From Brevibacillus sp. (lineage in GTDB: Bacteria > Bacillota > Bacilli > Brevibacillales > Brevibacillaceae): DNA of 6,368 bases. Positions 2,946-6,276 of the stretch are shown here, in pieces (position 1 is the first letter of the stretch; the number at the start of each line of letters is the position of its first letter). Below the pieces are notes generated by a model. It was not told the origin of the DNA, searched no databases, and saw nothing but the letters and a program-made list of their open reading frames with translations. Both the position numbers and the translations under genes were made by a program. The DNA is taken from assembly GCA_029240815.1 (NCBI GenBank), contig JARDZO010000303.1, positions 1 to 6,368 of the forward strand, read 5' to 3'.

Positions 2946-3758
2946 ATGATTCGGCATCAGTGGCTGTCAGCTGATCAAAAAGGTACCGTCGTGCTTGTCC
3001 ATGGTACCGGAGAGCATTATGGTCGATACGAGCACGTAGCAGCATTCCTGAATGCACGAGGCTGGAGCGTGTTCACGGGTGATTTGCCCGGCTGGGGACG
3101 GTCTCCTGGAAGGAAGGGGCATGTCGATTCGTTTGAGCAATATGTGGAAGCTGTAGACGAGTGGAGACGTGCAGCTCTAGAAGCTTCGGGAGAACGGCAA
3201 CCTCTATACATACTGGGGCACAGTTTGGGTGGATTGGTGGCCACCCGATATGTCCAGTATTACGAGCGGAGTAAGGAGGAGGTGGCGGGACTTATTCTGA
3301 CATCCCCATGTCTTGCCTTGAAATTGGCCGTTCCACCATGGAAAGTGAAGCTTGCGGGATGGCTGGACAGCATTTGGCCTACATTGACAATGCCAAATGG
3401 CATTACACCAGATATGGTGTCACGGGATGAGCGGGTCCAAGCAGCTTATCAGAGTGACCCACTCAATTATGCAAAAGTAAGTGTACGATGGTTTCAGGAG
3501 TTGCACAGGGCGATGGACCTGGCGTGGAAAGAGCGCGACCGCATCTCGCTCCCCGTCCTCGTCCTGCAAGCAGGGGACGATTCCCTGATCGATGCTGAAG
3601 CCATCGAGCGGTTCGCTGCTGGCATAGGTTCTGACGTAGAATTTCACCGATGGCGAGGATTACGCCATGAAGTGTTGAATGAACCGGAAAAAGATCAAGT
3701 GATGCTACAGGTAGAAGCGTGGATGAACCAGACGAGAGCGTCAAATGTGACATACTAA
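2946..3758 (+). CDS. Alpha/beta hydrolase of the monoacylglycerol lipase / lysophospholipase type
   Basis: The 270-residue protein is a cytoplasmic serine hydrolase of the Hydrolase_4 (serine aminopeptidase S33 / monoglyceride lipase) group. Near the N-terminus, VLVHGTGEHYGRY (16-28) carries the HGxxEH oxyanion motif of monoglyceride lipases. GDLPGWGRSPGRKGHV (45-60) is the conserved loop, and LGHSLGG (90-96) gives the nucleophile Ser93. Asp212 in LQAGDDSLID and His241 in GLRHEVLNE complete the triad. A lid-like segment with several tryptophans lies at about 126-195. Likely substrates are monoacylglycerols or lysophospholipids; the exact one cannot be read from sequence. The start is ATG 2946, seven bases after AAAGGAGG (2931-2938). 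An in-frame ATG at 2886 lacks such a site. No strong promoter was seen between the preceding terminator and this start. The last codons overlap a CcpN-like operator of the next locus. Confidence 0.88.
   Translation: MIRHQWLSADQKGTVVLVHGTGEHYGRYEHVAAFLNARGWSVFTGDLPGWGRSPGRKGHVDSFEQYVEAVDEWRRAALEASGERQPLYILGHSLGGLVATRYVQYYERSKEEVAGLILTSPCLALKLAVPPWKVKLAGWLDSIWPTLTMPNGITPDMVSRDERVQAAYQSDPLNYAKVSVRWFQELHRAMDLAWKERDRISLPVLVLQAGDDSLIDAEAIERFAAGIGSDVEFHRWRGLRHEVLNEPEKDQVMLQVEAWMNQTRASNVTY
3746..3756 (+). promoter_or_regulatory. Candidate CcpN operator, distal site
   Basis: TGTGACATACT matches all eleven positions of the CcpN binding consensus TRTGHYATAYW as I recall it for Bacillus subtilis SR1, gapB and pckA. 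It lies about 70 bases upstream of the inferred SR1 start and overlaps the last codons and stop of the hydrolase gene. CcpN represses these genes under glycolytic conditions. Confidence 0.6.
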
Positions 3759-3769
3759 TCGTTAAAAAA

Positions 3770-3780
3770 TGTGTTGAATT
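3770..3780 (+). promoter_or_regulatory. Weaker CcpN-like sequence, middle site
   Basis: TGTGTTGAATT matches nine of eleven positions of the remembered CcpN consensus; the seventh and eighth bases differ. It lies just upstream of the -35 box and may be chance. Confidence 0.25.
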
Positions 3781-3786
3781 ACCGTA

Positions 3787-3816
3787 TTGACTCCCAATGG
3801 TGTGGCATATTAAGAT
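3787..3816 (+). promoter_or_regulatory. Sigma-A promoter of the SR1-like RNA
   Basis: TTGACT (3787-3792, five of six -35 bases) and TAAGAT (3811-3816, four of six -10 bases) are separated by 18 bases. The inferred transcription start is near 3823. Confidence 0.6.
3801..3811 (+). promoter_or_regulatory. Candidate CcpN operator, proximal site
   Basis: TGTGGCATATT matches ten of eleven consensus positions, with G instead of A/C/T at position five. It lies between the -35 and -10 boxes and touches the -10, where binding would interfere with RNA polymerase. It is 55 bases from the perfect distal site, close to five helical turns, so both could face the same side of the DNA. Confidence 0.55.
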
Positions 3817-3852
3817 GTATGTAACATCACATTTGCGTTGATATGACCATCA

Positions 3853-3877
3853 TTCACACTGCGATCAGCAATGTGAA
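3853..3877 (+). promoter_or_regulatory. Hairpin in the SR1P leader, next to the ribosome binding site
   Basis: TTCACA-C-TGC (3853-3862) pairs with GCA-A-TGTGAA (3868-3877) around a GATCA loop, giving nine pairs with one internal mismatch. The stem ends three bases before GGAGGGG (3881-3887), so it may present the ribosome site or shield it by stacking or protein binding. Confidence 0.45.
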
Positions 3878-3894
3878 AACGGAGGGGAACATAT

Positions 3895-4020
3895 ATGGGA
3901 ACGATTGTATGCCAAACCTGCGGTACGATTATTGAACATTTTGAATCCAATCAGGTGAAAACGCTTTATGCGGTTTGTAACTGTGATTGCCAGTTGAACG
4001 AAAAACAAGAAAGAGAATAG
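3895..4020 (+). CDS. sr1P: GapA-binding peptide SR1P
   Basis: This is a 41-residue peptide beginning MGTIVCQTCGTIIEHFE, the characteristic start of SR1P. In Bacillus subtilis SR1P (39 residues) binds glyceraldehyde-3-phosphate dehydrogenase GapA, stabilises the gapA operon mRNA and promotes the GapA-RNase J1 interaction. The cysteines form a CxxC pair (C6, C9) and a CxCxC cluster (C28, C30, C32), suggesting a small metal-binding or thiol-rich fold. The middle segment QVKTLYAVC corresponds to the conserved KVTxLYGxC stretch of the known peptide. Translation starts at ATG 3895, seven bases after a strong GGAGGGG. The gene sits alone in a small RNA unit, with a terminator 12 bases after the stop. 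Regulation by CcpN is likely from the upstream sites. The assignment is confident from sequence recognition, but GapA binding itself is inferred by homology. Confidence 0.88.
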   Translation: MGTIVCQTCGTIIEHFESNQVKTLYAVCNCDCQLNEKQERE

Positions 4021-4032
4021 TTTACCTACGAT

Positions 4033-4061
4033 AGGCCTTTTGCGCAAGGCCTGTTTTTTTT
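4033..4061 (+). terminator. Terminator of the SR1-like RNA
   Basis: AGGCCTT (4033-4039) pairs with AAGGCCT (4046-4052) across a 6-base loop, followed by G and eight T (4054-4061). The last two T are also the first two bases of the next gene's -35 box. Confidence 0.9.
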
Positions 4062-4128: not shown

Positions 4129-6276
4129 ATGAAGCTTACACCCAAGCAGGGTTGGCTGGCCGCAGCAATATTGGTCACCTCTCTGTGGAGCGGGACACCG
4201 GCGTTTGCTTCCAGCATTGGCGACGAAATCAAATTAGACGTGGGCCAACCTGAGATTGCTAAAACCGGTTTTGACATTTCTGCGGACTATGCCGTGTGGA
4301 TGGTAGAGGGAGACAAAACCATCACTCTATATGACCTGGACGACAATTCGGAACTAAAGATCGGGGACAAAAGTTCCACAAAGACGAGCCCTCGCGTAGA
4401 TGGTAATTACGTCGTTTGGCTGGATTCTCGTGACGGCGGATCTGACGTGTACATGTACGATATTTCCAAGAAAAAAGAGACTCTTTTGTCGAGCGGTTCA
4501 GCTAAGGTCTCTCATGTGGAGATATCCGGAAAAAATGTTGTGTGGGATGACAATAGCCAAGGTGGTTCAGATATCTACCAGTACAATATTACTTCCGAGG
4601 ATGTCGAACAAATCAGTACGAGTGGTAAGGCTAGCAATCCAACTGTCAGTGATACATATATTGCATGGCAAGACGAGCGCAATGGCAACGCAGACATTTT
4701 TTATTACAACCTCAAAACGAAGAGTGAAAAGGCTGGCGTGACTACCCGAGGCGATCAACTGAATCCTTCGATCTACGCTGATCAGATCACATTTGAGGAA
4801 GATAATGATGAATACAGCCAAATTAGCACGTACTCGATTGCAACAGGTAAATCGAAAAAGCTGACAACCGATTCGAGTGATAAACAATCGCCGCATATTT
4901 ACAAAGATTCAGTGGTGTTTATAGATGATGGTGATGTGATGCTGGGTGACGTTGACTCAGAGGGAGGCAAAATCGTCAAAAGATCGATTTACGATAAACT
5001 GCCACCGAAAATTTACGGAGACTTCGTAATCTATGCCAAAACGGACAGCGACGACAAGCTCCGATTGACGTTGTATGACATGGATGAAAAGGAAGAATTG
5101 CCGATTGGCTCAACGGCAGGTGAGCCAAGTCAGCCAGATGGTCATGATCGTTACGTGGTCTACATTTCAGAAGGCAGCAGGAATGATTCTGTGATCCTGT
5201 ATGATGTTGAGAAGGGGACTAGCAAAGCGATCACGAAATTGGATGCGAGTCCATCACGTCCACTGGTTAGCAATCGTTATGTGGTCTGGTACGATGACTC
5301 TGAGGACGCACTCTTTTCCTACGATATTAAAAAGGGAACAACGAAACAGGTGACGGATGAAGACGATGACCAGTTGCCAGACGATAAACTGTACGAACTA
5401 GATGGCGATAACTTGCTGTGGGTCAACGTAGAAGGCAGACCAGAATTGTTCGTAACCGACTTGTCCACCAGTAAATCTAAGGACATCATTACCTTGAAAA
5501 ATGATCCATTGAGCGTTGATATTTATGGGAACTACGTATCGTGGGTTCAGGAACAAAGCTCCGACAAAGCAAGCGTGTTTCTGTATGATATGGATGAAGA
5601 AGACGACACAGAAATTCGCAAAAATGTTCAAGTAACACAAGCACAGCTTGGCGAAAATTTTGTAGTATGGAGTGAATATACGGACTCCTCGAAACCAAGC
5701 TGGGATTTGTACTATTACGATATTGATCGTGGCAAGACGAATTCTTTGCTGCGTTACAGTGATCGTGATCAAATCAATCCTCAAACATCCCGTAACATGG
5801 TTCTCTTCGAGGATAACCGTCTCTCACCAAACAAAAAGGATTTTTACCACGAGATGTACGATGTGGAAGATGGATCCTACAGTGATTACGCCTGGGATGA
5901 TGAAGCGGAAGTAGAAGATGTACGCATCGGAGGCAATCGCCTTGTTTGGATTGACAAACGCGATAGCACCCCATATGTATACACGCTCGCGTTTGACCAA
6001 CCGCAAGATGACGATGACGACAATGAGCCTACTCCAGATCCGGATCCAGAACCAGGTGATTACAAGGAATATACCATTCTGGAATTGATGACAGATGGTA
6101 CGCTGACTGACAAAATGAACGAAGCTGGCTTTAATAACTTTGTCATGGTATTCTTCGCGGGTACGAGCAAAGAAGAAACCATGTCGCTCTCTGAGGCTTT
6201 TGAAGATATGGACCACATGGCTGACTTGTTTGAGCAATCAGGACTGGACAAAATCAATATTCGTATCTACAAATAA
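4129..6276 (+). CDS. Secreted acidic TolB-like beta-propeller repeat protein with unknown C-terminal domain
   Basis: The 715-residue protein begins with a signal peptide: basic MKLTPKQ, hydrophobic WLAAAILVTSLWSG, and likely cleavage after AFA27. Residues of about 45-620 hold 14 repeats of 38-47 residues. Each has a strand such as YVVW, a polar D/E-rich turn, a strand such as DVYMYDI or SVILYDV, and K/T residues before the next unit. This is the pattern of TolB/WD40-like propeller blades. The core strands start near residues 54, 94, 136, 177, 219, 261, 299, 342, 384, 428, 469, 511, 557 and 604. Fourteen blades would fit two seven-bladed propellers. A Pro/Asp linker (625-644, DDDDDNEPTPDPDPEPGD) joins a C-terminal domain of about 70 residues that I do not recognise. 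No LPXTG or SLH motif is present, so the protein is probably released or wall-associated by charge. The start is ATG 4129, nine bases after GGAGG (4115-4119). Partners or ligands cannot be inferred from sequence. Confidence 0.8.
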   Translation: MKLTPKQGWLAAAILVTSLWSGTPAFASSIGDEIKLDVGQPEIAKTGFDISADYAVWMVEGDKTITLYDLDDNSELKIGDKSSTKTSPRVDGNYVVWLDSRDGGSDVYMYDISKKKETLLSSGSAKVSHVEISGKNVVWDDNSQGGSDIYQYNITSEDVEQISTSGKASNPTVSDTYIAWQDERNGNADIFYYNLKTKSEKAGVTTRGDQLNPSIYADQITFEEDNDEYSQISTYSIATGKSKKLTTDSSDKQSPHIYKDSVVFIDDGDVMLGDVDSEGGKIVKRSIYDKLPPKIYGDFVIYAKTDSDDKLRLTLYDMDEKEELPIGSTAGEPSQPDGHDRYVVYISEGSRNDSVILYDVEKGTSKAITKLDASPSRPLVSNRYVVWYDDSEDALFSYDIKKGTTKQVTDEDDDQLPDDKLYELDGDNLLWVNVEGRPELFVTDLSTSKSKDIITLKNDPLSVDIYGNYVSWVQEQSSDKASVFLYDMDEEDDTEIRKNVQVTQAQLGENFVVWSEYTDSSKPSWDLYYYDIDRGKTNSLLRYSDRDQINPQTSRNMVLFEDNRLSPNKKDFYHEMYDVEDGSYSDYAWDDEAEVEDVRIGGNRLVWIDKRDSTPYVYTLAFDQPQDDDDDNEPTPDPDPEPGDYKEYTILELMTDGTLTDKMNEAGFNNFVMVFFAGTSKEETMSLSEAFEDMDHMADLFEQSGLDKINIRIYK
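4249..5994 (+). repeat. Fourteen tandem propeller-type protein repeats
   Basis: At the protein level the unit repeats with a period of about 42 residues (126 bases). Recurrent motifs are Y/F-V-V-W/Y/F for the inner strand and a D/Y-rich strand ending in YD. The DNA copies are strongly diverged, so this is an old duplication rather than a recent tandem array. Confidence 0.75.

Follow-up and report, generated by a model that had tools for sequence, protein, structure and literature searches.

The window, as the whole stretch of 6,368 nucleotides of Brevibacillus DNA analysed here will be called, carries a small regulatory locus on its forward strand. It is preceded by the gene for an alpha/beta hydrolase (Hydrolase_4; 2946–3758), the product of which is 67% identical to its counterpart in B. 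centrosporus and 83% identical to that of a genome of the genus (L025). The sr1 promoter follows (3787–3816), with a −35 hexamer TTGACT (3787–3792), a spacer of 18 and a −10 hexamer TAAGAT (3811–3816), together 9 of 12 matches in the promoter listing. The SR1P gene (3895–4020) encodes 41 aa that score 69.7 bits against PF13790, where the gathering cut-off is 26. It is enclosed by a candidate SR1-like small RNA body (3842–4061), which aligns with the whole of the Rfam model RF02376 (1–210) but, at 31.1 bits, falls short of its gathering threshold of 45 (E 3.3e-4 in a search of 551 bases), and a terminator-like stem-loop (4030–4055) lies at the end of SR1. No Rfam match was found at the gathering score in the whole window. 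The likeness to the SR1 family lies in the full-length alignment, the encoded SR1P and the terminator-like stem, and the difference in the sub-gathering score. Further along, a 715-aa protein (4129–6276) has TIGR04275 beta-propeller repeats and no Pfam match.

A sequence-only reading of this DNA had picked out three matches to TRTGHYATAYW, all in one orientation, as two or three CcpN-like operators. This string, which we take to be the CcpN operator consensus, comes from that reader rather than from a paper, and it is absent from the literature searched. A motif scan of both strands found the three matches where they had been placed. Site I, TGTGACATACT (3746–3756, forward strand), matches at 11 of 11 positions and is the only perfect match of the whole window on either strand; in its extended form, TGTGACATACTAAT, it runs to 3759. 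Site II, TGTGGCATATT (3801–3811, forward strand), matches at 10 of 11, the single mismatch being a G at the consensus H. Given the positions of the −35 and −10 hexamers, it occupies most of the promoter spacer and touches the −10. One site thus lies upstream of the −35 and the other in the sr1 spacer, which is the placement expected of CcpN operators, and they stand 55 bp apart, start to start, as had been claimed. The third match, TGTGTTGAATT (3770–3780, forward strand), is 9 of 11, with two mismatches.

A first-order Markov model built on the window predicts one perfect match per 101 kb of each strand, so that the rarity asserted earlier (about 90 kb per strand) holds with a somewhat different figure. 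For any given stretch of 200 bp, the chance that one strand carries both a perfect match and another with no more than one mismatch is about 1e-4. Matches with up to two mismatches are not enriched in the window as a whole (44 against 35.6 expected, with 24 of 200 shuffles reaching 44), and the 9-of-11 match by itself therefore carries little weight. Nor is it conserved: that position has at most two mismatches in six of 27 sequences and at least three in the other 21, and nine genomes with a short operator spacing do not have 11 bp at that place. Two operators are predicted, and the third candidate is judged not to be one. At two loci (L007 and L012) site II is also a perfect match in the opposite direction, and the operator is therefore nearly palindromic.

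The genome-level comparison covers 26 genomes of the window's genus, which is that of B. centrosporus; these are relatives of the source of the window. SR1P (PF13790) is present in 26/26 of them and in 38 of the 39 genomes of the order, the exception (G196) having ccpN. The set of SR1P upstream regions excludes L179, where no SR1P start was found, and one further SR1P copy each in G142, G185, G191, G195 and G206. The perfect upstream site recurs at sr1 in all 26 genus genomes, and in all 39 SR1P upstreams of the order (26 from the genus, 12 from other members and the window). In the aligned upstreams of the genus the most constant stretches are the block around TGTGACATACTAAT, the TTGAC of the −35, and the spacer site. 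The expectation that the motifs would be conserved in related species is borne out for site I in full. Outside the order, a perfect upstream site is found in only 26 of 109 SR1P upstreams.

Site II has at most two mismatches in 25 of the 26 genus genomes and three in the remaining one, and is weak in one clade in particular: of the nine genomes in which the two sites are 44 bp apart, eight have two mismatches and the ninth has three. With these genomes in mind, and with one mismatch in the window itself, site II might be no operator at all but an AT-rich stretch of spacer and −10 with a fortuitous likeness to the motif, leaving site I as the sole operator. We regard this as unlikely, although of the alternatives considered it is the one that keeps the most weight. 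Outside the genus, a spacer site with no more than one mismatch occurs in 65 of 120 SR1P upstreams, against 0.8% of Markov controls, and CcpN of B. subtilis binds the spacer (PMC8464778).

A homologue of the regulator was looked for, as the sequence-only reading had proposed, and ccpN was found in 26/26 genomes of the genus, directly before yqfL on the same strand; at three loci the two genes are flanked by ORFs taken, on reading, for glyS and dnaG. The one protein scanned has HTH_11 and CBS domains, and it matches PDB 3fv6 (‘YqzB protein’) at 147 bits over the CBS part; CcpN is presumably YqzB, going by the title of a cited reference. Four orthologues from outside the order are 60–63% identical overall and one from inside the order is 84.5% identical, and all five share the HTH stretch LTRATLRPDL with the 26 genus genomes. 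Of 398 Bacilli sampled, 338 gave a ccpN match at 1e-15 and SR1P was present in 145; comparison of the tables by eye shows a ccpN match at that threshold in 143 of the 145. The two SR1P genomes without a match at 1e-15 are G067 and G088, and G088 still has the spacer site. Four genomes (G061, G120, G162 and G270) each have two ccpN-like matches, one of which has an in-frame TAA in G120 and in G270.

The same motif was sought at the promoters of pckA and gapB, with a positive result in 26/26 genus genomes for each. The sequence TGTGATATACTAAT precedes pckA in all 26, and TGTG[TA][CT]ATACTTAT precedes gapB in all 23 genomes with a recognised gapB start. The other three (L143, L147 and L150) were added by coordinates: in each, the motif is 533 bp upstream of the Gp_dh_C match, a distance also seen in other genomes. 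Across the 26 genomes the 14-mer TRTGHYATACTWAT has 91 matches; the reversed pattern has 21. When placed by their coordinates, 79 of the 91 fall at sr1, pckA or gapB: 26 at pckA, 26 at gapB, 25 at sr1 site I and two, inverted, at sr1 site II. None of the 12 matches elsewhere was seen, on reading them, to recur across the genus, and so no further members of the regulon were found among them. A recurrent sequence, TGTGCCATATTAAT, was set aside as a regulon site; the three copies inspected (L090, L099 and L112) each fall within an ORF that was taken, on reading, for a livH-type permease. Four of the 12 matches elsewhere, in four genomes of the genus (L294, L295, L296 and L299), are copies of TGTGTTATACTAAT that precede an ORF named by reading as SpoIIIE/FtsK-like; this may be a plain promoter.

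In B. subtilis sr1 is a target of CcpN (PMC8464778), gapB and pckA are given as CcpN genes (PMC3616900, PMC7936320), and in Geobacillus gapB and pckA are likewise assigned to CcpN (PMC7936320). By its targets and its conservation, TRTGHYATACTWAT would almost certainly be a CcpN site in a conserved regulon. Motif identity alone cannot name the protein that binds, and the spacer site of G088 occurs in a genome lacking a ccpN match at the threshold used; another repressor with a similar motif might therefore govern sr1, pckA and gapB while CcpN, present in the cell, acts elsewhere. This is less likely again than a fortuitous site II. The motif, the three targets and the two-site layout all match those of CcpN of B. 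subtilis (PMC8464778; for gapB and pckA in Geobacillus, PMC7936320), and the regulator is there in 26/26 genomes with its HTH stretch conserved.

The relation of site I to the gene upstream is unusually close. The hydrolase ORF (2946–3758) stops at a TAA at 3756–3758, so that site I takes in the final three sense codons, a single base of one further codon and the initial T of the stop. An operator embedded in the end of a coding sequence had been claimed for the window, and the arrangement recurs throughout the genus: in 27/27 sequences (the 26 genomes and the window) the site overlaps or abuts the hydrolase stop, which starts at one of six positions (−8, −7, −4, −3, +2 or +10) relative to the base at which site I opens. 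In 11 of the 27 the operator itself supplies the stop, either as the TAA of ACTAA (five sequences, the window included) or as the TGA of TGTGA (six), and in eight further sequences a TAA stands immediately before site I. As the TAA and TGA supplied by the operator fall in different frames, the operator is the fixed element. The regulatory site stays put, and it is the hydrolase gene that changes frame at its 3′ end.

This decides against the notion that site I is kept as code for the hydrolase C terminus, or as a shared promoter element, and not for protein binding. In the window the site does overlap the end of a coding sequence, but across the 27 sequences the DNA is constant as the reading frame and the stop move about it, and the motif also precedes pckA and gapB. 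The coding explanation was rejected on these grounds, and this alternative as a whole is very improbable. Chance, to which the near-expected number of window matches with up to two mismatches might point, is negligible given conservation in 26/26 genomes and the scarcity of matches genome-wide.

The distance between the two sites varies in a patterned way. Start to start, it is 44 bp in nine Brevibacillus genomes and 53–56 bp in the other 17, the 44-bp clade having 11 bp fewer between site I and the −35 than its sisters. Elsewhere in the order, the 12 remaining members have spacings of 27, 44, 56, 56, 57, 76, 77, 96, 97, 97, 98 and 107 bp. Outside the order, among upstreams with a perfect upstream site, the spacing is 32 or 33 bp in 22 of 26, and 31, 36, 86 and 97 bp occur once each. 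The values cluster around 32, 44, 55, 76.5, 97 and 107 bp. Fitted to a comb with a period of about 10.7 bp, these centres give R 0.72 when all rows are included (permutation p 0.0008 or 0.0012 in two runs, kinship ignored); when site II is limited to at most one mismatch R is 0.69 (p 0.018, kinship again ignored). For the distinct spacings R rises to 0.65–0.67 near 10.5–11 bp, against values of at most 0.14 at 9.5 bp and, at 12 bp, of 0.11 for all rows and 0.31 for the filtered set. Two spacings, 27 bp (L284) and 36 bp (L175), are exceptions to the comb, and the 86-bp row (L261), which is included in the all-rows test, has a site II with five mismatches. As controls, the distance from site II to the SR1P start gave R 0.12 on distinct values and 0.62 on six cluster centres, and that from site I to the SR1P start 0.22 and 0.35; because the first of these controls reaches 0.62, the cluster-centre test must be regarded as permissive.

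The comb is reasonable, if inconclusive, evidence that the operator pair is helically phased, and a period of about 10.7 bp suggests that the two sites act from the same face of the DNA. It may be that the upstream sr1 operator has moved by whole helical turns in evolution, repression requiring both proteins on one face, whether for a short CcpN–CcpN loop or for contact with the alpha subunit of RNA polymerase, and that in Brevibacillus this drift brought the operator to overlap the 3′ end of the adjacent gene, whose stop it supplies in 11 of 27 sequences; we would put this history at even odds. The spacings form a natural series by which the geometry of CcpN repression becomes directly testable.

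Taken together, the two sites are best read as predicted CcpN operators at the promoter of SR1 and SR1P in Brevibacillus, which would jointly repress it on sugar and release it in gluconeogenesis; we give this reading a probability of about 0.88. The earlier proposal that CcpN control of SR1 is conserved outside Bacillus gains support from the presence of ccpN, of the sr1 sites and of the pckA and gapB motif in 26/26 genus genomes, and the sugar-sensing CcpN circuit known from Bacillus very probably operates in Brevibacillus too. From these sequence comparisons we infer binding, repression, dependence on glucose and cooperation between the sites. With ample sugar in the medium, CcpN would sit on site II within the promoter spacer and also on site I, 55 bp upstream and on approximately the same face of the DNA, some five helical turns away. 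The two bound proteins, with or without the alpha subunit of RNA polymerase, would keep the promoter shut. During growth by gluconeogenesis CcpN would be released, and SR1 and SR1P would then be made along with the products of pckA and gapB.

The B. subtilis protein requires ATP and a slightly acid pH, represses sr1 20–30-fold, and touches the alpha subunit of RNA polymerase, blocking promoter escape (PMC8464778, PMC7430163). The simplest account of the Brevibacillus promoter would be that the repressor known from B. subtilis acts there too, its distal site displaced by about two more turns. Placement on the same face would suit a short-loop CcpN–CcpN contact or an alpha contact alike; the pairs 96–107 bp apart would favour the loop.

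The B. subtilis sr1 promoter is alike in having two sites, one in the spacer and one upstream, and in its target, SR1 and SR1P (PMC8464778), and the B. subtilis regulon is alike in that pckA and gapB carry the same motif in the window's relatives. The Brevibacillus promoter differs in that its upstream site stands away from the −35, with typically 41 bp between the two starts (30 bp in one clade), and overlaps or abuts a hydrolase stop. The two also differ over cre. Of 110 upstreams outside the order (L163–L285 examined), 45 have a cre-like box (ARCGNWTNCA) in the 110 bp preceding SR1P, where shuffles give 0.5%; the count is 0/39 within the window's order (0/27 for the genus with the window, 0/12 for the other members). 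In B. subtilis the cre is placed about 260 bp upstream, according to reviews (PMC8464778, PMC7430163). The CcpN regulon of the Lactobacillales shares a CcpN orthologue and the control of gluconeogenesis but differs in its targets, which are predicted there to be ppdK, ccpN and fbp (PMC3616900) and here are sr1, pckA and gapB.

A literature search that covered part of the primary papers on CcpN and SR1 found none joining SR1, Brevibacillus and CcpN, or SR1P and Brevibacillus. As far as the literature searched shows, conservation outside Bacillus, the overlap of operator and stop across a genus and the turn-wise spacing are new, although earlier primary papers may report part of this. The sr1–pckA–gapB circuit ascribed to CcpN is extended to a genus, and its sr1 part to the order to which that genus belongs.

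Two minor observations concern SR1P loci elsewhere. Outside the genus, a candidate site III near the SR1 start follows site II at a distance of 19 or 21 bp, in 22% and 18% of 88 upstreams at two mismatches, against a background of 1.6% (for example L185, L213, L225, L246, L253 and L254, among others); as the window matches there, by reading, at only 7 of 11 positions, no site III is claimed for it. One genome (G191; L243 and L283) has three SR1P matches, and the two upstreams of these that were read carry TATGACATACTAA.
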